Shown: one piece after another, positions 11,691 to 58,936 of the stretch
Layout of the letters: every line of letters begins with the position of its first letter
How positions within the stretch are numbered: the stretch's first letter is position 1
From: Polytrichum commune
Taxonomy: Eukaryota; Streptophyta; Polytrichopsida; Polytrichales; Polytrichaceae
NCBI GenBank assembly: GCA_950295325.1
Contig: OX485806.1
Span: 23,934,001-23,998,000, forward strand
Direction of reading: 5' to 3'
Length of the DNA stretch: 64,000 nt
Position numbers and translations under genes: made by a program
Notes under the pieces: generated by a model
Told to the model about the DNA's origin: nothing
Databases searched by the model: none
Seen by the model: the letters and a program-made list of their open reading frames with translations, nothing else

Positions 11691-11785
11691 TAGCGTGAAG
11701 ACAACGTCGTGGCTTCTGGACCTCGCTTGCTTCTCATCGGCATTCTAACTGCTTCTTCTCGTTTTTTGGAGCAGTATTGGAGGCC

Positions 11786-13831
11786 ATGCAGATGGATGTA
11801 ATGTCAGAGCACTCTGAGGTGCCATGCTTCAGCCAGCAGATGACGGACGCTCTTTTCTTCTCCATGGCTGTGTACCAACCTACACCGGAAATGGTGTTGT
11901 CAGACCTGCACACAAGGTTTGAAACAGTGACCCCTGTGATGGAGTTCGGATTCGGGGAAGAAGGAAAACAGGCGATCTTTGCTGGGCGAACCTCGAAAGG
12001 CCGCATTATTGTGGCGTGCCGAGGTACTGCTGGGCTGAAAGATGTTTTGCAGGACCTAAAGTACTTTCACACTCATCTCGCATACGTGCGGGGAGCTGCA
12101 CACTGGGGGTTTGCAGAGAGGGCGCAGAGTGTGCCTATCGATTACTTCTGCAAGCTGTTGAGTGCAGGGGAGGAAATTGTCTTTACTGGTCACTCATTGG
12201 GAGGCGCTGTTGCTTCTCTTTTGAGTTTAAGAGTGCTGGAACACACTAAAGGAAGCTTCCAGCATCAGGTGCATTGCATCACATTTGGGTCGCCACTCTT
12301 TGCAAGTGACAGCCTGGCGCAGACAATCAATTCCAAATATAAGAACGTCTTCCTCCACGTTGTTTCAAAGCGGGATGTCATCCCTAAAATTCTACCAGTT
12401 GTATCTGCCTTGCAACGCCTCCTGTATGCAGGTGAAGATCATCTTGAAGGGTTGTCTGTTATTAGGAAACTGCTGGAATGCATAAAGTGGCTACCTGTCG
12501 TTCCTTTCATGAAAGGGGTCGAACGAAGAATTCCCAGCCTTCTTAAGCTTCTTATTCGGTGTCTTATGAAGCTTGCATCACCAAGTCACGTGACAGGCTC
12601 TTATGCCTTCGCTGGACATGTCTTGATGTTGGACTCTGATGCAACCATTGAGAGTTCACTGAAGCTTTCGAGCGCGGACGACCTCAACAACTGGCACTCA
12701 CAGCTGAATTTTGCACTTGGAGCTGGGTTCGATCCGTCCATGATTGAAGAGCATGGATTGAACAGGTACAAAGATGGGATTTTACGAGCATTCTCTCATG
12801 TTGTTATCAATCGTGAGGTGAGTTCCTGTGGAGGGGACTGCATATGTGTTGAGTCGACATCGATACTGTCAAACGGGAGCTCACAGTGTACTTTTGAAGA
12901 CGAGGGACAGCAGAAGAAAATCCTTATTCGACTCACCAGTAAAGGTGATGTTGGAAAAGAGGCATGTGAGCTGCTGCTACAATGCACTATGAACAATGAA
13001 GTTGATGCAAAAGGTCTTCTTTCTCGGGGTTCCTTGAAGGATATTGATGTTTGGCAAAATGATGGCGATGGATCACAGGAAATTTTAAAGTACTTCCAAA
13101 TGATGGAAAGTTCATGTGATGAGCTTTGTGCCTTGAGCAGCGATAGTGGCCTGAAAAGAGTCGATGTCACCAAAGTTTGCCACTATGGTGCTTTCATGTG
13201 CAAGGGAGGCTCTGTTGCTTGTAGTTCTGGTGAAATAACCGTTGCAGGTCAGAGCAAGGAAGCATATGCGTACTCTGAATATAGGAAGACGTCATCTAGT
13301 CACATGAATCATGGAAAGAGTAAAGCACATTTAGAGGAAACCCAGGTCTTGGAGGGTAATGAAGGATATGAAGGCATGTCAATATGTGTTGGGGAAGGCA
13401 ATGGATCTTCTCTCTCGTTCAAGAACCTCACACATGCCATGGCTGCTGGTGAGAGATCTGGTCCACATTCTTTGGAAAAAGGAGGTTCTGGCAAATTGCC
13501 AGGAATTGATGGGCGTAGTTTGATGAGAAGCAGATCAGGTAGTTCCAACAGTTCCCAATGGCCTCTCATCCCCAGGGATTATCAAGGTGGCGTTCCAGGA
13601 CATGTTCTATGTTGCCAGACCTGCTCTTCTCTTGAGGTCTGCAAACTTTTGAATAGGCAGACTGCCATCACCAGTGTCAGCAAGGCTATTGTAAGAGGGT
13701 ATGGGCACAAGCGCTACAAATTTGGATGGTTTCTGGGTACGATTGGCCGAGTTGCACGACATCTGCGAGTGCTGGACAACATGTGCATTCTTACATTCAT
13801 CAAAATTGCCTTGAGCAATTTCTTGGGGTAA
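11786..13831 (+). CDS. Class 3 lipase-type alpha/beta hydrolase
   Basis: An uninterrupted 681-residue frame. The first ATG (11786) follows a likely leader-intron acceptor, TTTTTTGGAGCAG, ending at 11774. Lipase_3 fold features are visible: a beta strand plus oxyanion region (GRIIVACRGTAG, about 72-83), the nucleophile elbow GHSLGG with Ser at about 137, an acid candidate Asp at about 197 in SKRDVIPK, and a His candidate at about 325 in EEHGLNRYKDG. This triad layout matches plant Lipase_3 and EDS1-like hydrolases, which hydrolyse acylglycerol or related esters; the substrate is unknown. An extended C-terminal half (about 350-681) is unlike the usual short lipases. It is Ser/Gly-rich to about 590, then ends in a conserved-looking segment (RGYGHKRYKFGWFLGTIGR) and a hydrophobic tail that may contact membranes. 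No EDS1-type C-terminal domain is recognised. No signal peptide is seen. A polyadenylation-type AATAAA is at 14677. Confidence 0.85.
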   Translation: MQMDVMSEHSEVPCFSQQMTDALFFSMAVYQPTPEMVLSDLHTRFETVTPVMEFGFGEEGKQAIFAGRTSKGRIIVACRGTAGLKDVLQDLKYFHTHLAYVRGAAHWGFAERAQSVPIDYFCKLLSAGEEIVFTGHSLGGAVASLLSLRVLEHTKGSFQHQVHCITFGSPLFASDSLAQTINSKYKNVFLHVVSKRDVIPKILPVVSALQRLLYAGEDHLEGLSVIRKLLECIKWLPVVPFMKGVERRIPSLLKLLIRCLMKLASPSHVTGSYAFAGHVLMLDSDATIESSLKLSSADDLNNWHSQLNFALGAGFDPSMIEEHGLNRYKDGILRAFSHVVINREVSSCGGDCICVESTSILSNGSSQCTFEDEGQQKKILIRLTSKGDVGKEACELLLQCTMNNEVDAKGLLSRGSLKDIDVWQNDGDGSQEILKYFQMMESSCDELCALSSDSGLKRVDVTKVCHYGAFMCKGGSVACSSGEITVAGQSKEAYAYSEYRKTSSSHMNHGKSKAHLEETQVLEGNEGYEGMSICVGEGNGSSLSFKNLTHAMAAGERSGPHSLEKGGSGKLPGIDGRSLMRSRSGSSNSSQWPLIPRDYQGGVPGHVLCCQTCSSLEVCKLLNRQTAITSVSKAIVRGYGHKRYKFGWFLGTIGRVARHLRVLDNMCILTFIKIALSNFLG

Positions 13832-43835: not shown

Positions 43836-44288
43836 GAAACCTAAGGCTTGGTGTGAGCCCAAAATGGTGCCCACATGTGGTGATTAACTCTTTGAAACCA
43901 ATTTTAGTTTGACTTTGAGGTGTTATGATTATTCACAAAACATAAAAAGAGTGAAGTGTGGTGTGGATTTAAGTTTAGGCATTAGAATGTGTTGTGTGGT
44001 TATTTCAAGGTTTGATTTCAATAAGAGAATGCCTTGATTATGTGAGTAAGGGGTAAGGTGAGGCAAGGTGAGCTCCGTGGGTTAAATGCCCACTTTTGGA
44101 TCCACCTTGTTGGTTTAGGAAGGAGGAAGCTTGGTGGATGGGGATTAGTCCCTACTTTGGAGGAGAAGGTTAAGGGATTGTGATTGGAGGTGCTAATCCT
44201 CTCACCCTATCCTCACCTCTCTCCCCCTCTCTCTCTTTGCTACTTAAGGTGTTTTTCTCTCATTTTACCTCTCTCTCTATCAAGTGCT

Positions 44289-44430
44289 CTCAAGAGAGCG
44301 AGCTCTTAAGAGCTTGAGCCACGTGTGTGGGTTGATTAGTTTTTAGTGAAGTGAAGGAGTTAAGCTCTCTCTCTCGTCCTCTCAAGGAGGTGAGCTCTTA
44401 GAGCTTGGAACCACGTGTGTAGATTAGTTA
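44289..44430 (+). repeat. About 90-bp direct duplication
   Basis: GAGCTCTTAAGAGCTTGAGCC followed by ACGTGTGTGGGTTGATTAG (44301-44340) is repeated as GAGCTCTTAGAGCTTGGAACC and ACGTGTGTAGATTAG (44391-44428), separated by CT-rich sequence. It follows a promoter-like TACTTAAGGTGTTTTTCTC stretch at about 44240, so it could be a transcribed leader of the element at 43836-48110; that is inference. Confidence 0.6.
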
Positions 44431-44593
44431 ATGTTGTTAGTTTATTAGTTAGTTTATTAGTCAAAGAATAAAAAAGTTATCCATTGTCCGATTAAGCATC
44501 TTGAGAGGATTACATTTAGTGTGTAGTTGAAAGGCTCCCATGTGGGCCTTTGACTAATTAGGTGATTAGGTGGATTGTGGTAAATTTTAGTTC

Positions 44594-45044
44594 GGCTTGA
44601 TTAAGCTTCTGGGTTACTGAGGTCTGGGCTAAGGCCCCTGGATCACCGAGACTGGGCTAAGCCCTTGCAGCACTGAAGTCTGGCTTAAGGCCCCTGGATC
44701 ACCGAGACTGGGCTAAGCCCTTGCAGCACCGAAGTCTGGCTTAAGGCCCTGGAGCGCCGAGGCTGGGCTAAGCCCTTGCAACACCGAAGTCTGGCTTAAG
44801 GCCCCTGGATCACCGAGACTGGGCTAAGCCCTTGCAACACCGAAGTCTGGCTTAAGGCCCCTGGATCACCGAGACTGGGCTAAGCCCTTGCAGCACCGAA
44901 GTCTGGCTTAAGGCCCTGGAGCGCCGAGGCTGGGCTAAGCCCTTGCAGCACCGAAGTCTGGCTTAAGGCCCCTGGAGCGCCGAGGCTTGGCTAAGCCCTT
45001 GAAGCACTGAAGTTTGGCTTAAGGCCCCTGGAGCGCCGAAGTTG
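44594..45044 (+). repeat. 57-bp minisatellite, about 7.5 copies
   Basis: The unit, with the landmarks GGCTTAAGGCCCCTGGA, CGCCGAGGCTGGGC and TAAGCCCTTGCAGCACCGAA, is repeated head to tail. CTAAGCCCTTG occurs seven times. Units alternate between GGATCACCGAGACTGGG and GGAGCGCCGAGGCTGGG types, so the array grew by multi-unit steps. No spacer sequences exist, so it is not CRISPR-like. Units contain short palindromes such as GGGCTAAGCCC. Confidence 0.9.
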
Positions 45045-45333
45045 TAGGCTAGTTAAATTAAAAGGTTACCTGGTTGGGTAAACCATTTACATTTAATTAA
45101 GCTAAGAGGCTACTCGAAGTTGGAACTAATCAATAAGGCACAAACATATTCTAGCATCTATCACATTAGATTCCCTAAAACCTTAATTAGCCATGGGAAA
45201 GTAGTTAGGACTTTTAGTATAGTTAGAATTAAGGGTGGCCGCAAGGCAATTGTGTGGGAGCGTGTTTAACCATTAAGGGAGTGTTTTTCAACACTTACAT
45301 CCTTTTTGGTAGAAAATCGATCACTTATAAAAA

Positions 45334-45559
45334 AATGGAGAAAGCGGAGGACATCCACATTGGCGAGACAAAGGAGGTTAGGCCGATGGAGAAAGCGGAA
45401 GACTCTAGCAATGGTCAAGTAACGAAGAGAATAATCAAAGGCCAAAGGGGGATATCCTTGAGAGCTTGTGTTGCCAAGGCCGCCGGTTGGACCCTTGAGA
45501 AGGCCAACGCGGCCCAAAGCCAAGAGGCTACCACTAATAAACAAAGTGATTCAAAATGA
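45334..45559 (+). CDS. Small Lys/Ala-rich hypothetical ORF inside inverted-repeat block
   Basis: From the ATG at 45334, a 74-codon frame reads MEKAEDIHIGETKEVRPMEK and onward; it contains an internal duplication (MEKAEDIHIGETKEV / MEKAEDSSNGQVTK). It is rich in Lys, Glu and Ala. No family is recognised and no other support for expression exists. It may be a chance frame within the repetitive element. Confidence 0.2.
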
Positions 45560-48110
45560 TATGAACGCCTTTGGGTACAAAGAGATCATTCTTCCGATAC
45601 AAACAATACATGTGATTCTCAACACCATCACCCGGACTAGGACGCTTAAGGGTGGTGGGTTTGGCCTCACACTTGGGTATCAAAAGATACTTCCAACCCA
45701 TAATTCCGGCCACCACACACTCTTATTTAAGCTAATCACCTAATCAAATTCTAATCTAAAATCTCCCTTCACCCTATTAACTTGGTATTAGTTCGTGATT
45801 AACCACACATCCCCATGGTCAATCCCCAAGCTCAAGCACACCATCTAACCCCTCAAAATCTCACTGCTAATCTATTCTGTCCGCCCAAGGAACCTCAGCA
45901 GTCGGCCCCATCCCCCGTAACCCCTGCCTCAGTACCCGATCCTGGAGTGCAGACGAGTATGGAGTCCCTCCCAACGCACTGTTCGCAGCCTTCTAAGCCC
46001 CTGCCATTCGGCCGCAGCTGGAGCAATTCCACCCAACCTTCATATTGCATTAGCCCTATCCTGACCCTTACTTCGTCTCGCACACAATGCAACCTTCTTT
46101 TTCACTTCCTCCCAGCTGCCTCGGTATTCAATTAGCTGAGCGACTTACAGGCAGTTTCTGCCGATCCCAATTCGTGCTCAATTTGTATTGATTGGATCGC
46201 AGCCGCTAGTACACCCTGAGTTTCCTCATTCCCCTGCATCTGGGCATTGGTTCCTTCAGTGCACACCTACACTCACTCACAATCTTGAGGTTCAAAATTC
46301 AGACAATGCAGGTCGTTCCCCTGTCGAATCCAACCATTGACATTCAAACGGTCAGGGTAGCTACCAAGGCCGCAATTTTCCTTCTAACCAGCTTGAGCGG
46401 TTCCCCATCCATCCTTATTCAATTCAGTAGCCTGTCAAGCTTTCCCGGCCGCTCCTCGGTGTATCTTCCTCCCTTCCTCCTTAGGCTGTCCAAGTGAGAT
46501 TGCCAATCCTCAATTGCGGCCACCTCTAATCCCACCAGCCGCTATGGCCTCCTTGATCCCCCTCCCCCTGTTCGGCGACCGCCCTCATTGTCGCAACCCT
46601 TGCTAGCCCCCCCTTGACCATCTTGCCAAATTTCATTTTCTAGCAAAGGTTACGAGCGCAAACCCTTCGCATTCCGCCATGCTAATGGTTAGCTCCTCTT
46701 ACCCCGGACCATATAGTTCATAGGAGGGGAACCAACCCTCCTACTTTACTTTACTTCGGAACTCACCCCTTTAATCGGTAACCAATCCTTAGATGTGGAC
46801 TTCCATCCATGGAAGTCCAATCTTATGTTGATCATCGCGTTGCCGGAGCAACACTACAACAACCCGAACCATACTAGGCAACTATGGCCTCACAATGGGC
46901 CGAAGCCCATGGAGGCCGTGCCGTTCGGCCTCGGGTGGGTGAGGCCACATCACCTCACCCATATAAGCCTCTAGGACTCTACGCGGGGCCCCTACCCCAC
47001 CGTCAAGAAACCTCTTGTCTCTCTACCAAGAGTTGGGGCCAAGTAGACATTTTCCCTTAGCCGCTGGGCCTAGAAGCCCCTAGCAACTTCAGGCCATCAT
47101 AACTTCCTTGTACGAAATCTGATGCTAACAAGCAACCACTTGATCTTCATCTACGCTTCACGTAGATACCGATGGACTCCTCACTTACCCCATTCAGGCA
47201 AGTTTTGAGGAAGTTATGCCTGTTTGAACCTTGGCAGTCCCGGGAATCACACCCAGGCACTGCTGTACCAGGGCGCTGTCCTGGGAAAGCGCCCCACTCA
47301 AATGGCCATAACTCCTAGCTCACACCTCCGATTGAGGTGTTCTTGAGCATTCTATAATCACCACACCATAAGCTACGCATAGCTTATGGCCCTACCCTCA
47401 TGCCTCCTAATCTCCGTGGGTGGGAGGCGTTCCCAACGCCCGGGGCCCTCACCCACACTAGGATCACTTGGGCCCTCTCACCAACAGCGCCACAAGTCCC
47501 GGGTGTCACTCCGGGGTCCCCCTTGTGCCCATGGTGTTTCGGGCACTCCTCATGGAGAGGTGCGCGACACTCATAGTATGCACACACGTATAGCTACTGC
47601 CCCAAGATTGGGTTGCTGAGCCCTCAGCCTGATTCCCCTCGTCGAGAGAGGCATCCTTCGACCTCGAAATCTTCTGGACCATCCTTCGAACTTCTGCCTT
47701 CCCACACCGAGAACCAGCAGCACTCCAGAGCCTCACAGGAGCTCTCTGCTGGGATCCGAAACTCCAGGTCCTATCCTCCCGAGGAGGCCGACCCCTTCCT
47801 AGAATTAACACCCACTCATCCTAATCTAAACAATTAATCCTGGTCAAAACCGCCATCTCCATTAATTTACAGCTTAAGTACTAACCCCGTAATTCATGCC
47901 CAACCCAACCATTAATTAACAATTTAATTGAACATCCATGCCTCATTCCAGCCCACACAAATCTTCATCTTAACACTAATTTAAACCTAGCCCCTTCACT
48001 CTTTTTATGCTTTCAAGTAATTAAATAGTTATCAAGTCCAAAATCTAATGAACTACTCAATTCAACCACACATGTGGGCACCATTTTGGGCTCACAGCAA
48101 GCTATGTTTC

Positions 48111-51923: not shown

Positions 51924-52000
51924 GAGGGAATTTATGATACAAGTATATCTCTCTACCATCCAACATAGAAATTGGACCCCCTATAGGTTTGTGGCCAACT
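51924..52000. mobile_element. MITE family A, copy 4, left part
   Basis: Begins AGGGAATTTATGATAC... and contains CTACCATCCAACAT, as in the other family A left ends. It is cut at 52000 by the MULE-like element. The copy continues at 58937-59050 (CATTTCAATTAGCTTGGACT...), is cut again, and its right end (GTGAACAAGAGGTAC...CAATAATTCC) is at about 59870-59907. Confidence 0.65.
51991..52000. repeat. Target-site duplication, left copy
   Basis: GTGGCCAACT, identical to 58927-58936. Duplications of 8-11 bp are typical of Mutator-like elements. The uninterrupted relative at about 8306-8316 has TGGCCGATTC at this place, confirming that one copy is the original and one was created by insertion. Confidence 0.9.
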
Positions 52001-52066
52001 GAGGGAAGCTAGCATGTGAGCGTTGAGTGGTGAGTAGTGAGCAGTGAGCGGTAACATGTGAGCAGT
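52001..52066 (+). repeat. Left terminal inverted repeat, GTGAGC-array
   Basis: After GAGGGAAGCTAG it consists of CATGTGAGCGTTGAGTGGTG then AGTAGTGAGCAGTGAGCGG, that is repeated (G/T)TGAG(C/T) words every 7-8 bases. Such spacing suggests several adjacent protein-binding sites. The right copy is at 58861-58926. Confidence 0.8.
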
Positions 52067-52389
52067 CAACAAAAAAATGACCAATAATAGGATTTTAAAA
52101 GAAAATATTCCAATATAGTTGGATTATATATTATGAAAACAAAATTGTGGGAAAAAAAATGTATTGAACTCGACCCTATTACCATGGATTTCAGGAAGTT
52201 TGTTGATCCACGGTGATAGGCATTTTATTGACATGTCAAGTACGGCATTGAAATGTCGAGCACTTTATTGTGACAAACAACTATTTAGTTGTACCATCAG
52301 TTTGTACTACATACATTTCATATGGATATACACAACTATTTCTATATATGTAAAAATGATGAATAATTGCGTCCATGCCCTTCACCCCT

Positions 52390-55300
52390 ATGCCACTACG
52401 CCTCTTCTGCAACACCCGCGAGCTCAAGAAGTCGCATCACCTCATTGTAGCTGATGTCGGTGCATGAATGAACTTGTCAGTGGCGTAGTCAACCTTGCAC
52501 AAATACTTGAACACGTAATACAAGTGCTTGCATGAAACCCACTGACCCATTTTTCCCACTGCCAAAGACAACATTTTCACAAAGTCCGGGCAAATGCATT
52601 GTGGAATATTTGCAATGGAGACAAGGTATGTCTTCTCTTCTTTGGAAACTATGGTTATGATGCATCCGTATCCAGGGTATGGAATGGGAGTCACACCAAC
52701 CACATAATACCCATCCATGTGTAATGCGCTCTCCCATTTATTCATGTGCTCTGATAATGGTGCTGCCATGTTCCGTCAAACTGCCTTAGAAAACCGTGTG
52801 TTTGGATGCGCATTTGGGTTTGGAGGAACACAAAAATGTGAACGAGGGATGGGGAGGTTTGTCATTGTTCTCAATCGACGACGTGGTGACAGTGCCTCTT
52901 TCTGTTGTAGTTGAAACCCAACATCTTCCAATGCAAACACCTCCTCCCATGTAAGGTTTGTACCAACCTTCACTGGCCACACCTTAGGGAGATTTGGCCA
53001 ATCAAACACCCATTTCTTCTTGCTCCCCTTCACACATTGATTAATGTCATCTGCACAAAACCAAAAATTTGTTGGAACATGGTTGTTGGAATGGTATTCT
53101 TTTTTCATGCTTGTGTACGTTGGCGTAGGTGTGCCATGTGTATTTTTCCCAACTTTAGCCCTACATGGATGTCCAGTATTGGCCTACAATGCCTGACACT
53201 CTTTCTTGGACGGATAAGGCAATCGTGAAATATACCATTGGTATTCAAGACACTCTGACTCCAACACATTAGTGGTGTGAGACACCATATTCTCATCACG
53301 CTTGAAGGATTCATCTATGCGTGCCCTCGTTGACCTTGTATTAGGGTGAGGGATGGAGTAGTTCACTTTGTCGGGACGATGAGAATCATACTCAAATCCA
53401 GGTGGTAAGTCTAGTTTTCTTTTGGTTGATCCAAACAACTCAGAGCTCTCAAGTGTACAATTCCTTGTATTAAGATCCTCTGCCCCAGGGTATGACCTCA
53501 TTGCCTCTGCAAGAAGTTTGGAATCACCAATGTGTGTTGCAGCTTTGAGCTTCAATGATGCTTGATCTGGCCCTTTTCCTGAAGAACCCCCTTTAAGCCA
53601 AGAACGATAATTTGCGATCTGCATGAATGCGCGGATCATGTCATCCACGGTGCCTCGTACAAGCATGTCATTTTGTTCCATGATTGTTGTAGCCACTTGT
53701 TATGCACTGTTTCTGCTAGGTTGCAAGTTGGCATCTCAGCACGCTGATCCAAACCCAAATCCTATAGTACATATTGGGAATATTTTTAGTTTTAAAAATT
53801 GAGATGACACAACAATTTTATCAATAGTAGAGAAGGGACACTTGTGTATAGGATAAACTTACAATGAGCATGTGAACTCCCCATTGTCTATATCGATAAT
53901 GCCAAAACCCCAACCATTCCGACAAGCTGTATATGCCCTGCTCAGTGGTTGCCCCTGATGACAACCACCATGCCCGTATTACATGGTATTTGATGTTGGC
54001 GTCCTCCAAACTCTTGGCATCCTTGTAGTCTTTACAAAGTTGTTTGTGTTCATGTTGCAATGACGGTCGGATGTGTTTTTGTGTTATTTTATCCAAATTG
54101 GCAAACCAATGAAAAAAACATGTACGTTCGCGACCCTTGAGGGGAACAGATGGATCACCATCCCCGTAAATCTTCCTCACATCAATCTAATTTGCTTGGG
54201 CACTGTCCGCTATGAATCCTTTGAAATTGACATTGGGAACACCATTCTTCAATATGACAGCATTTAAATTTTTCCAAAAAATGGTTTGGGCCCGAGCATC
54301 CTCCGATTGTATATCACAACAGGCTATTGTGAGAACCTTGCAATATTTGCTATCGTAGATATGACACGTCATTGTAGTCCAGTCTCGTAATTGCTTCACA
54401 TGGTCAAACATGATCCACGAATTTTCCATGTCTCCTCCATACTGCATGCGCTTTACCAAATCGACTCCGCTTCTAGCAAGATCCACAGACATCTTCAACA
54501 CAAAGACCTTATCTTTGGATTGCCCTGGAAATCGACTATCATGCACATATTTGAACCCAGAGTGGTTTTTTAGCGCCATGATACTATCCAGGGAACCCAT
54601 TCCACTACGAATGAAACATTTGGAACCCGCCACAAAGTTCCTACAGTTAGGGGAAGCCAAAGTGGAGAATTTATCCATTACCACCTCCAAGGATGCTCCA
54701 TGAAGATGGTTTTTTTCTCCTAGGAGTGGGAATTTGAGGATGTAATCAGCCAAAAACTGTTTATTGGCAGTCATAACAATAGCCGAGTTCTTTGCAGTTG
54801 GAGTTTAGCCACCTCATTTGCCACACACTGGTAAGCCATGTCTAGTGACTCACGACACACTCCACTAGACACAGGGTGGTTGTGAACACCCAAATGAATA
54901 CAAACACGGGACATATTTGACGATTGTGAATGCACGTATATAATTTTTGCATAGCAAACATCAAGACATATGGGAGCGGCATGACAAACCTTGCATTGAA
55001 CCTTAGATTTCTCTGGTGGGTCTGTACCAACCATGAAAGGAGTGGGTGTAATACCGATCCATTCAGTACAGGTGCGAACTCCACCATTTCGTGAAAAATA
55101 CTCACATAAGTCGTTAGGACATTGGAGATGACCAACGCATGAAGACCTCCGAAAAGTCAAACCAAATTCATTTTGAATATTTGCTGTTTTGGTTCTGCAC
55201 CAAGCATGTCCGTCGTAAATCTTGTCCATGCCATCCATCGCCTTGCCATAAGCATATGGAATTTCAGTCTTGACCGGTGGCAAAATGAAAAGGACATACC

Positions 55301-55462
55301 CATTGAAAGAAGACGGCAGATACTTCACATCCTCTATAGCAATATTATCGAAGTCAATATTTGTGAGATTGGATTTGGATCTTCTACGACATTTGGTGAT
55401 TTTGAGGGCTTCTAATACATGGACATCAGCTATGGATGACGTAGGATGAACATGAAGTTGTC
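52390..55462 (-). pseudogene. MULE-like transposase with zinc-finger N-terminus and SWIM finger, decayed
   Basis: Reading starts near 55462 and runs leftward through frames 55328-54771, 54774-53863, an intron (53862-53762, GTAAGT...ATAG), then 53761-52437; about 990 codons in all. The N-terminal part has Cys/His-rich DNA-binding features (GHLQCPNDLCEYFSRN, CKVCHAAPICLDVC, LGVHNHPV), like WRKY-GCM1/FLYWCH-type fingers of MULE proteins. The core has CKVLTIACCDIQSED...IFWKNL and GFIADSAQAN, then CFFHW, consistent with a MULE DDE core plus its C..H motif. The C-terminus has CICPDF...CKHLYYVF, a SWIM (CxC...CxH) finger. Damage: frame change near 54790; TAG at 54187-54189 in a place where Trp is likely; frame change near 53670; TAG at 53184-53186; TGA at 52776-52778; frame change near 52445. 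The start codon is uncertain. Confidence 0.75.
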
Positions 55463-55465
55463 TTG

Positions 55466-56405
55466 ATATGTATGCTTGAAAAGTGTTGTGTGGTTTGCTT
55501 GATGGGTTTTTAGTGCATCAAAGAATTTCAATGAAGAAGCTTCAAGGTTGAAATTGAAGCTTCTAGGATTTCTAAAAGGTTGAGGGCAAGGATTTCATGA
55601 CCTTCACCTAGTCCTTGCTCTCATAAGGTGCTGAAAATGAGACATTAATGTCCATAAAAACAACAAATGAAGAAGCAAGAAAAAACCTCAAAACTTCAAC
55701 AAAATGAGTTCCGGTTCCGAGACTAGGTTTTTTGGAATTTTCGGGTTTTCTTCTTGTCTCTTCATATCTTATTTTTGTCTTTCTTCTTGCATTTGTTTAT
55801 CTTCATTACTTGTATCTTGCCTTGATATGTATGTTTGGAGGTTATTGTATGGTTTGCTTGATGGATTTGTACTACATCAAAGAGTTTCAATAAAGAAGCT
55901 TCAAGCTTGAAATTGAAGCTTCTAGAATTTCTAAAAGGTTGAGGGCACGGATTTCATGACCTTCACCTAGTCCTTGTTTTCATAAGGTACTTAAAATGAG
56001 ATATTAATGTCCACAAAAACAAGAAATGAAGAAGCAAGTAAAAACATCAAAACTTCAACAAAGTGAGTTCCGGTTCCAAGACTAGGTTTTTTGGAATTTT
56101 CGGGTTTTCTTCTTACCTCTACATGTCTTGTTTTTGTTCTTCTTCTTGCACTTGTTTATCTTCATTACTTGTATCTTGCCTTGATATGTATGCTTGGAAG
56201 TTGTTGTGTGGTTTGCTTGATGGGTTTTTAGTGCATCAAAGAATTTCAATGAAGAAGCTTCAAGGTTAAAATTGAAGCTTCGAAGATTTCTAAAAGATTG
56301 AGGGCACGGATTTCATCACCTTCACCTAGCATTTGCTTTCATAAGGTGCTGAAAAAGAGACATTAATGACCACAAAAAACAATAAATGAAGAAGCAAGAA
56401 AAAAC
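55466..56405. repeat. 359-bp tandem repeat between divergent transposon genes
   Basis: Period about 359 bases, 2.6 copies (starting about 55466, 55826 and 56185). Each unit holds GATATGTATGCTTG, GTGTGGTTTGCTTGATGGG, GGTTGAGGGCA.GGATTTCATGA, GAGTTCCGGTTC and GGTTTTTTGGAATTTTCGGG. Copies are about 90% identical. The first copy overlaps the presumed 5' end of the transposase gene; the last ends about 40 bases before the ATG of the methyltransferase-like gene. A 68-codon frame occurs in each full unit (55704, 56063), but the second has GTG where the first has ATG, so it is unlikely to be translated. The position suggests a shared bidirectional promoter or a silencing target. Confidence 0.85.
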
Positions 56406-56441
56406 CATTAAAGTGGAATTATGCCACGTTAAAGTGGGATT

Positions 56442-58346
56442 ATGCTACTTTGCAGTCTTGTCCATGGTTTATTAAGTATCCTCTTACATTTTTGTTCAAG
56501 TGAGGAGGAGGAGCTTAGGAAACAGTCATATCCAATAGACTTGTCTCCTGATGATATTGACATGATAAACAATGAGGTTGTATGTGTGGTGAAAGTAATC
56601 AAACCGGAGGGAAAAACTAAACGTAAGCGTGGCTTAAAGGTGGATGAGGGTAATCCAACACCTTCATCTCAAATTGGTATTATGGCACGCAATCATAATC
56701 TTTCAACATCTACACCTAGCACTCAAGGCAATGATGGACCTAAGTTTTCTCCTATTTCGAGATCACAACGATCTCAACATGTGTCAAAAACCATTGTCAA
56801 TGGTGCTTCATCTTTTGGGCCAATTTCTTCAGTGATGTTGGAGAAAATTTCAATACAAACATTGATGGAGAATGGTTGTCATGAGAATTTGTTAATGTTG
56901 AAAACATTCGAATTTGTGACTAAGGTTAGTATACTGAACATTGAACTTATTTTTATTTTATAAAATATGGTGTTGATTTTGCAACATGCTTTGGACTTGA
57001 GTGTAATTATTATTTTTTGGTTCTTTTGATAGGTGGGTTCCGGACGCAAGAGGAGGGTTTCTTCAGAGGATTGTAATTTTAGAGGTTTTAATCTTATTAT
57101 TGCAGATTTGCCAGAAGGTTTATTTGTACCTAACGTTTCATCTCCTTCACATGTAATCCCAGCTTGGAACGACCACAAGAGAAAGAACATTGAGGCTCTA
57201 TTTGAATTTGCATGTGCATATCTCACCGATGATGGCCCCTTGCTTTTGTTTGTCCCTGAAAAGAAAGATGTTAGAAACGATGTAAGGACATTCGCAGCCT
57301 CCTATGATTTTGTATTGCGAAAAGATTGGTGGGGCTTCAACGAGTTGCCTTTGTGTTATCCATTTGACACGTCGTTGACGGTATACATTAAACTCTATTA
57401 TTTATTACTTCGATTTCTACTTTTTCATTGTATTGCAATGTTCTCCTCAATTTTGCAATCGAATCCCCCGTTAAAGATTTTCTTGTGGTTTATAGACTCG
57501 TCGTTTCCGCATCATGTTGTTTCTTCGTTCTACTCCCAAGTCGGAGTTTATTTTTCAAAAAAGAAACGCAAATACTGAGGTGGATGTGGAGGCCTTGGAT
57601 GTGTTCTTAATCTCACATCGGCGAGCAATCAATTCATGAATGGAAAAGTGCCATGGAGAGGTGGTAGGGAGAAGGACTCAGAATCTATGCAAATCTTAAT
57701 AGAGGCTTTAACAACCCCCGCATCGGTTATCCTCGATGCTTACGCATCTACATGTCGGTTTATCTCTTAGTCATGGACCTATTATATCATCTCTCAATGT
57801 GTTTTAATGAAGTCACTATAGTATTGTCAGTGGTTTTTGCAAATTAACTGACATTGCAACATTTCATTGGCAGGTGCATCTATTCATGCTTGCAGAAATA
57901 GTGGCCGCCATCTAATTGCATACGAGAAAGATTCTGCATTGTTTGATGCTATTCTATCCCCATTAAGTGATCCACTACCAACTACTAGTGTAGGTGGATT
58001 TATGCCACATAATGCCTCCATCGATTCCGATGAAGAGCTTGTTAAGAAGGTTGTGAGAAAAGATCGATTGAAAACGTATGTTTTTAATTTCTCCATATTG
58101 TTTGCTAACTTGGCCTCCAATGTCTAGTATGTGTGCACTAGAAGTCTAATACTTATAATTTTATTTCGCAAAAAAAAGAACAACATGACTTCATCTCCGA
58201 ATATGGGTTTGCCAATATATACTGAAAATGTTGCTCAAATCATGGCAAGATCAATGACGCCAACACCTCGCCGTATGTCTGCACGAATTGCCCGTAACCC
58301 GTACGTAGATGATGAGGCGATTCAATGCGATGATCTAAATGATTAA
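56442..58346 (+). CDS. Transposon-borne amino DNA methyltransferase-like protein, 5 exons
   Basis: Proposed exons: 56442-56924, 57033-57380, 57496-57753, 57874-58075, 58142-58346. GT-AG borders hold; the last junction is uncertain. Exon 1 is polar with a nuclear-signal-like KTKRKRGLK. Exon 2 holds the catalytic-loop equivalent (FNLIIADLPEG, about 181-190) and helix-strand LTDDGPLLLFVPEKKD. Exon 3 has VPWRGGREKDSESMQILIEA and VILDAYAST, completed in exon 4 by ASIHACRNSGRHLIAYEKD, the AdoMet-binding motif. The order, catalytic motif before AdoMet motif, is that of permuted beta-class N6-adenine/N4-cytosine methyltransferases. The usual D/N-P-P-Y/F is D-L-P-E, so activity is doubtful in this copy. 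One frame change near 57620-57640 is needed to join exon 3; no nonsense codons otherwise. The tail has RRMSARIARNPY. Alternative: an RNA or protein methyltransferase of the same fold. Confidence 0.65.
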
Positions 58347-58860
58347 GCTAAATTAGTTTAGGGACATTTAGGTAGTTGTCAATACCATCCACTATGTATT
58401 TGATTGGATTGGATATGATTGGATTGGATATTATTTGGTTGGATGTGTGACAATGTTTGGATTCATCATTTTAAATTACCACCATTAGTGAACATTGAAT
58501 TGTGTGAGCAATTTCCTCTTATTCCTGAATCCTATATCCTAAAACTTAATTACCTCCATCAATTCATTTCTCAAACTTACATGAATTTTAGAATTACAGT
58601 TCAAAGCAATACTTGGAAGGTGCTTGCATTGATATTACAATTGGATGTTGAATCCAACAACAATATTAAAATTCTTTTTCAAACCCTCAAGCCAAGCTTG
58701 CAATTGTTGAATTTAAAAATAGAGTTAGGCATTCATGAGGATAATTATATTTTTTAACTCTTCATTAATTTTATTTTAGAAAAAATATATTATTATTTAT
58801 GCCAAAATACCACGGATATAGGGTACTAGTGCGTGTATTTCCAAAAATCTTTCCTCACTC
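58347..58860. other. Transposon right subterminal region
   Basis: AT-rich sequence between the methyltransferase-like gene and the right inverted repeat. GGATTGGATATGATTGGATT repeats occur at about 58400-58442. The frame at 58419-58757 is low in complexity and matches nothing. Confidence 0.5.
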
Positions 58861-58926
58861 ACCGTTCACAAGTTACTGCTCATCGCTCACCGCTCATTGC
58901 TCACCGCTCACATGATAGCACTCCCC
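58861..58926 (-). repeat. Right terminal inverted repeat, GTGAGC-array
   Basis: Reverse complement of the left end, about 74% identical. Read on + it is a run of GCTCA(C/T) words (GCTCATCGCTCACCGCTCA etc.) ending CATGATAGCACTCCCC. Confidence 0.8.
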
Positions 58927-58936
58927 GTGGCCAACT
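58927..58936. repeat. Target-site duplication, right copy
   Basis: GTGGCCAACT, identical to 51991-52000, directly after the right inverted repeat of the MULE-like element. Confidence 0.9.

Follow-up and report, generated by a model that had tools for sequence, protein, structure and literature searches.

A family of DNA transposons in Polytrichum commune that pairs a transposase gene with a divergent gene for a methyltransferase-like protein

The window analysed here is a stretch of 64,000 nucleotides from the genome of the moss Polytrichum commune (C4:23934001-23998000). At positions 52001-58926 it contains a DNA transposon with inverted ends, a broken transposase gene on the minus strand and, divergent to it on the plus strand, a five-exon gene for a methyltransferase (MTase)-like protein. 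The element belongs to a family of DNA transposons that have target site duplications of 9-10 bp, like those of Mutator-like elements (MULEs), and that repeatedly encode, in two genes divergent to each other, a transposase with a SWIM-like finger and a protein combining a GNHR domain and an MTase-like domain. An earlier note on this DNA had described a Mutator-like transposon carrying a DNA methyltransferase-like gene. The inverted ends and the perfect 10-bp target site duplication given there were confirmed: the terminal arms (52008-52066 and 58861-58919) are 59 nt long and 78% complementary, forming inverted repeats of about 60 nt, and GTGGCCAACT is present on both flanks (51991..52000 and 58927..58936). 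For the left terminal inverted repeat (52001..52066, plus strand) there are at least 41 matches in the same genome (best 40 of 93 candidates scored), and for the right one (58861..58926, minus strand) at least 40 (best 40 of 680 candidates scored).

The transposase relic covers positions 52437-55517 of the minus strand and is interrupted by in-frame stops and frame changes. Its first exon, which comprises the catalytic part (53821..55517), is broken at two places, by a stop in frame near 54187 and by a change of frame near 54771-54804; open frames of 734-794 aa are found in relatives. In-frame stops are also found in the C-terminal part (52437..53699). There, at 52524..52598 of the minus strand, a SWIM-like CxC..CxH pattern was read by eye, and the homologous stretch in L011 (sequences of individual loci are given L numbers) reached 15.8 bits against PF04434 with an E value of 0.01, which is under the Pfam cut-off of 19.6; a MULE of the same genome (L071) scores 15.7. 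Of the transposase relic with SWIM finger named in the earlier note, the broken transposase on the minus strand was thus recovered, and the finger stands as a pattern seen by eye with a relative under the cut-off. As a separate observation, in each of four elements whose left ends are 97-99% like that of the window (C1:52660639, C1:4040298, C6:38018788 and C1:66725138) the same stretch of the transposase contains one TGA and one TAG, which might reflect mobilisation in trans of copies lacking a working transposase.

MULEs generate target site duplications of 8-11 bp (PMC6446971), and the duplications of 10 bp in the window and 9 bp in other complete copies fall within this range. The open frames of L009 (734 and 458 aa) gave no match to the MULE transposase domain PF10551 at E 0.5. 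Comparison of a transposase profile with five aligned MULE frames, which came from four to five loci in the same genome (hhalign), resulted in a non-significant probability of 0.08, with the second D and the C..H columns in register, and a PDB search with the transposase profile found no match. The element looks and behaves like a MULE, yet we do not class it as one, because neither PF10551 nor profile similarity of its transposase was detected. The Mutator-like character proposed earlier is supported by the inverted ends, by the 9-10 bp duplications in the copies and, tentatively, by the SWIM-like finger, but not by the transposase domain.

The boundaries of the exons of the MTase-like gene were placed by eye; all lie on the plus strand. 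The first surviving exon (56476..56923), whose start is uncertain, is followed by exon 2 (57033..57380), which holds the motif IV position with the residues DLPEG (57105..57119) and has at least 154 matches in the genome (best 150 of 1185 candidates scored). Exon 3 (57496..57753) contains PWRGGREK of the motif X region (57651-57674) and LDAYAST of motif I (57732-57752), and, compared with L002-L008, its frame is broken near 57600-57615. The remainder of motif I and motif II (ASIHACRNSGRHLIAYEKD) are encoded by exon 4 (57874..58075), and the C-terminal tail by exon 5 (58180..58346, boundary approximate). The exons have homologues in L002-L008. These relatives were needed to read the motifs, because a Pfam search of the single window pieces gave no match above cut-off. 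The motifs follow one another as IV, X, I, an order typical of beta-class amino-MTases and in agreement with the permuted amino-methyltransferase motifs and the divergent five-exon gene reported earlier. Upstream exons, which encode a conserved GNHR domain in longer relatives, had no match in the window copy. The window element, being broken in both the transposase and the MTase-like gene, is a decayed and internally shortened member of its family. Between its two genes, three repeats with a spacing of 359 bp are present (55458..56475), and each of them includes one inverted repeat with AAGCTT arms: AGAAGCTTCAA-8-TTGAAGCTTCT at 55535..55564, and the others at 55894-55923 and 56254-56281.

The genome of the window (407.8 Mb, with seven large contigs and a plant-type telomere) was searched for further copies, which are named by contig and position in Mb. 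We collected 150 matches to the transposase (the best 150 of 1574 candidates scored), the best 150 of 3172 candidates scored for the GNHR domain, and a separate set for the divergent MTase plus linker. To pair ends and MTase genes, 39 of 41 left-end matches and 150 MTase matches were used. In 15 of the 39 cases the left end is followed inwards by an MTase match of the expected strand, at a distance of 4.5-13.4 kb; 10 of these 15 have the right end in place as well. This results in 10 complete elements, the window included, among the 39 left-end matches listed, all with left end, transposase, MTase-like gene and right end in the same order. The duplications were checked for nine of the 10, C2:12.29 being excluded. 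Four complete elements besides the window (C1:66.72, C6:38.02, C5:1.24 and C7:1.02) have perfect 9-bp duplications, 8 of 9 bases match in C6:27.51, and nine matching bases were seen by eye at C1:52.66, C1:4.04 and C5:19.26, where the fetched pieces were offset.

A partner gene (GNHR or MTase/linker part) was located divergently downstream within 15 kb in 116 of the 150 transposase matches listed, 35 of them via MTase or linker matches and 86 via GNHR matches, compared with a mean of 0.9 and a maximum of 4 in 300 rounds of shuffled positions. The four possible orientations of the GNHR part relative to the transposase were counted 86, 1, 0 and 0 times. The earlier note had suggested a search for copies with both genes between matching inverted ends and 9-10 bp duplications, and had named ends that never include the MTase-like gene, or a host gene trapped once by accident, as findings that would speak against its proposal. 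Such copies exist and neither of these two situations was found, since the gene recurs in the element in ordered pairing. A single accidental capture is rejected on the basis of the 10 ordered complete elements and the divergent pairing in 116 of the 150 transposase matches listed; the MTase-like gene is a recurrent, regular part of the transposon.

In longer relatives the complete architecture is visible. The element at C7:1.02 has a length of 11,168 bp with both ends seen, transposase frames of 734 and 458 aa and, divergent to these, exons with the GNHR domain, a linker and the MTase domain. The same layout was observed at C4:3.36, C6:9.37, C1:3.44, C5:48.8 and C7:36.9. At least six subfamilies share it, and between them the identity of the MTase domains falls as low as 24%; the seven elements compared (six relatives and the window) represent six subfamilies, because the window is of the C7:1.02 type. 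Of the 21 pairs that these seven elements form, 18 have MTases that are 24-36% identical, and the transposases are 40-87% identical; in this comparison the near-identical L042 stood in for the C6:9.37 MTase, the C1:3.44 transposase consisted of the N-terminal 398 aa, and two MTases were without the last exon. In the C6:9.37 element (C6:9371500-9385700) a protein-kinase-like open frame (L011:7366-8874, plus strand) is located between the transposase and the GNHR-MTase gene; it matched PF00069 with an E value of 7.6e-7, below the cut-off of that family, and PF07714 with 23.3 bits, just over the cut-off of 23.1. An open frame of 1551 aa, of the Ty3/Gypsy retrotransposon type by eye, lies within or beside an MTase-bearing element at C1:27.98 Mb (L039:5322 to L016:274, minus strand).

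Judged from its sequence, the second protein, which is encoded by multiple exons, has a GNHR domain at its N terminus, joined by a linker to a domain that resembles beta-class N6/N4 methyltransferases. The GNHR domain was located at L009:6782-7477, L038:6765-7181, L045:6387-7142, L046:1435-2004, L012:1-423 and L063:3799-4416, and [WY][DE]GNHR..AW is kept in all five sequences of the domain compared. For the MTase domain, only the continuous 577-aa frame of L042 passed the PF01555 cut-off (29.9 versus 26.7 bits); other single sequences remained below it (L012 with 26.4, L046 with 13.7 and L063 with 12.6 bits), and L045 and the window pieces gave no match. The family profile A6 aligned with CcrM (6pbd) over nearly the whole domain (E 1.8e-4), and with DpnA-type enzymes (5hfj) over the stretch from motif X to motif II only (E 6.1e-8). 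Searches outside the genome found no informative relatives among viral contigs; among phages there was no match for the GNHR part and one weak methylase match (E 0.3), and among plasmids one match (E 4).

Motif names and residue roles are used as established for amino-MTases, in which the canonical motif IV is [DNS]PP[YFW]. At this position, DLIIADLPEGL of the family stands opposite DLIFADPPYNL of CcrM in the alignment. The variants found were DLPEG, DIPEG and DIPEN, DIPDG in L042, EYPDG in L046 and QFPDG in L063, and none of 34 translated loci had PP[YFW] at motif IV. Among ten relatives of L063, members of a large young group picked from the 150 GNHR matches for an open GNHR part, nine have LQFPDG and one has LQFPNG; in 7 of the 10, both exons have open frames. 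All nine rows of A6 keep PWRG..K, the motif I aspartate, and the E and D that follow RH in motif II. With motif IV altered and the motifs on the S-adenosylmethionine (SAM) side kept, the protein appears MTase-like and its catalysis uncertain; we use this term rather than that of an active enzyme because motif IV deviates from [DNS]PP[YFW]. The methyltransferase activity that the earlier note had in mind is not supported, as motif IV is altered in every subfamily examined, the window with its DLPEG included. The protein might still be an active DNA amino-methyltransferase despite DLPEG or LQFPDG, which would methylate adenine or cytosine of the element's DNA and thereby tune transposase binding, replication timing or silencing. 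The conservation of motifs I, II and X would fit such an enzyme, the relatives found are N6A enzymes, and palindromes in the elements (see below) could be methylation sites. We nevertheless consider it unlikely, given that PP[YFW] was missing from all 34 translated loci and that motif IV begins with Q in each of the 10 young copies checked and with E in L046.

Selection on the MTase-like gene was analysed with ten stop-free sequences (nine of sixteen listed, and L042) by the ratio of nonsynonymous to synonymous substitution rates (dN/dS). The values were 0.18-0.21 for L019 versus L002, L004 and L007, and 0.14 for L013-L016, with dS of 1.2-1.6; seven further computable pairs gave 0.24-0.57. For the recent pair L002-L004 the ratio was 0.99, as expected because copies decay after insertion. 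In the L063 group, 21 pairs without L063 itself showed 0.00-0.47 in 19 cases, 0.79 in one and an undefined value in one, and the seven pairs with L063, in which the second exon starts in a different frame, gave 0.61-1.57. The low ratios are signs of purifying selection and suggest that the gene is under constraint. They also bear on the idea that a host MTase gene was trapped by chance in one element and has no role. MULEs do tend to pick up fragments of host genes (PMC6446971), but the ordered, recurrent pairing with the transposase and the low dN/dS between subfamilies speak against chance trapping, as does the fact that all ten young copies checked (selected for an open GNHR part) carry the gene, with both parts open in 7. 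We give this explanation practically no chance.

Repeated palindromes (arms of at least 9, spacer of at most 8) were found in all seven elements, mostly between the two genes, with counts of 3, 5, 10, 11, 9, 7 and 11 compared with 0-3 in five shuffles each. They are GTTTCGGTACCGAAAC at C4:3.36, TTTGTGCGC..GCGCACAAA with a spacing of 104 bp at C6:9.37, TGTGCGTTAACGCACA at C1:3.44 and GGTGCCGTTAACGGCACC at C7:36.9; at C5:48.8, CTGTCGGATCCGACAG lies upstream and GCCTCGGATCCGAGGC is present three times past the MTase exons. Genome-wide there are 694 sites of TGTGCGTTAACGCACA and 0 of its reversed control. All 50 sites listed are upstream of a GNHR-domain match, at a distance of no more than 18 kb and in 43 cases of no more than 6 kb. 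Of 42 short spacings, 30 equal a multiple of 64 bp to within one base. For GGTGCCGTTAACGGCACC there are 259 sites genome-wide (control 0); the 50 listed are clustered, one cluster lying around a linker match of a GNHR-MTase gene. In eight further upstream regions, repeated 20-mers were present in all eight and palindrome arrays of CGGTACCG in two, both of the already known C4:3.36 type. Upstream repeats are therefore general, and palindromes with a CG-N4-CG core are limited to some subfamilies; their presence in all subfamilies was not confirmed. The palindrome GTTTGGGTCGGCCGACCCAAAC was rejected as a part of the system: it has 277 sites genome-wide, and most of the 50 listed stand alone at scattered places (e.g., C1:625785 and C2:767526); it is probably a part of another repeat family.

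We favour, at a probability of roughly 0.55, the view that the second protein is a self-directed, sequence-specific DNA-binding or regulatory factor built on an MTase fold, working for the element and not for the host, rather than a standard N6A/N4C methyltransferase. Given the altered motif IV of all subfamilies seen, we consider a DNA-binding or regulatory role the likelier one. The earlier note had suggested that the enzyme could mark the element's ends for its transposase, protect DNA or alter silencing, any of which may be the case; the palindrome arrays in several subfamilies favour self-recognition. The conserved parts of the protein suggest binding of SAM and DNA, and its likeliest targets would be the repeats of its own element. 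Bound there, it would control or de-repress the transposon, like VANC in VANDAL MULEs, and by this analogy its role is probably regulatory or anti-silencing. More tentatively, and at less than even odds, the GNHR-MTase-fold protein of each subfamily may recognise its own inter-genic repeat array, in several subfamilies palindromes built around CG-NNNN-CG. The element would thereby gain a DNA mark or nucleoprotein complex of its own, and with it a way to escape silencing or to control transposition, the fold having turned into a reader or an unconventional writer and proteins and sites diversifying together.

Several results weigh against this self-directed role. Searches of Pfam, PHROGs and NCBIfam with the GNHR domain gave nothing above cut-off, its profile gave only chance matches in the PDB (ryanodine receptor) and none to ParB, and it looks like ParB or sulfiredoxin only by eye. 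For 34 of the 150 transposase matches neither partner is among the matches listed, although one may still be present there. The dN/dS ratio was computable in 12 of 45 pairs only (0.14-0.57, plus 0.99), the other 33 being saturated, and the values in the L063 group all rest on few changes. The window has three inverted repeats compared with up to two in five shuffles, and these three could be a by-product of the 359-bp repeats. CG-N4-CG or repeated perfect palindromes are absent from 6 of the 8 further upstream regions. Finally, transposase and MTase identities are uncorrelated over the seven elements (Spearman -0.19; Mantel 3591 of 5040).

Owing to this lack of correlation, exchange of modules or very unequal evolutionary rates have to be considered. 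The GNHR-MTase cassette could be a modular passenger swapped among elements, or an addiction or counter-defence cassette, with transposase lineages acquiring different versions. Transposases that are 83-87% alike are indeed paired with MTases that are 29-30% alike (C7:1.02 versus C6:9.37, and C6:9.37 versus C1:3.44, the latter transposase identity covering 160 residues and L042 standing in for the C6:9.37 MTase), and TET/JBP genes moving between fungal DNA transposons offer a precedent (PMC12730594). Position and divergent orientation are, however, constant in the elements seen, and faster evolution of the MTase would yield the same pattern. We regard a swapped cassette as quite improbable.

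Elsewhere in the window, the stretch 44001-48000 has a G+C content of 50%, higher than the 36-38% on either side, and a 710-aa open frame at 11699-13831 (plus strand) with a lipase-like GHSLGGA motif, seen by eye, is probably an ordinary host gene.

To our knowledge, few eukaryotic DNA transposons carry genes for DNA modification, whose benefit to the transposon in most cases awaits explanation. A literature search found no described DNA transposon with such an N6/N4-MTase-like gene, most subscription papers being outside its reach. Members of the family described here are numerous, some of them with open frames, and combine a protein with an MTase fold under constraint with repeats specific to the element. 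The idea of transposon-encoded epigenetic counter-measures thereby becomes directly testable in one plant. DAM-like methyltransferase domains are carried by DIRS retrotransposons, which are thus eukaryotic mobile elements with an amino-MTase domain; these are tyrosine-recombinase retrotransposons, unlike transposase-encoding DNA transposons with target duplications. With the bacterial beta-class amino-MTases CcrM (6pbd) and the DpnA type (5hfj), the moss protein shares the motif order IV-X-I and residues of motifs I, II and X, and it differs from them by the change of DPPY to D[LI]PE[GN] and variants in motif IV, by the additional N-terminal domain and linker, and by introns.

Accessory reading frames occur in MULEs, and the main text of the source on these contains neither the word methyltransferase nor the word moss (PMC6446971). 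Virus-borne Mariner elements resemble the moss family in being DNA transposons with a methyltransferase gene next to that of the transposase, but their enzymes are of the Methyltransf_26 or C5-cytosine type and stand next to endonucleases, and no plant family is among them (PMC3627910). In fungal DNA transposons with TET/JBP dioxygenases, DNA-modification genes are likewise second genes and were passed between transposon lineages, whereas the class of enzyme and the transposase lineages are different; SET genes in oomycete MuDR and Harbinger elements are mentioned in the same work (PMC12730594). The VANDAL MULEs of Arabidopsis with their VANC proteins (PMC5735166, PMC10398659) encode an accessory protein that differs from the one described here, which has an N6/N4-MTase-like and a GNHR domain; the two are likened by layout. 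VANC proteins bind short motifs, which have built up within the tandem repeats of the element that encodes them, and cause methylation to be lost at these places (PMC5735166). VANDAL families have diverged proteins together with diverged targets, and the repeats of the moss element are candidates for such targets. Both systems are DNA transposons with an accessory gene beside the transposase and with internal tandem repeats.

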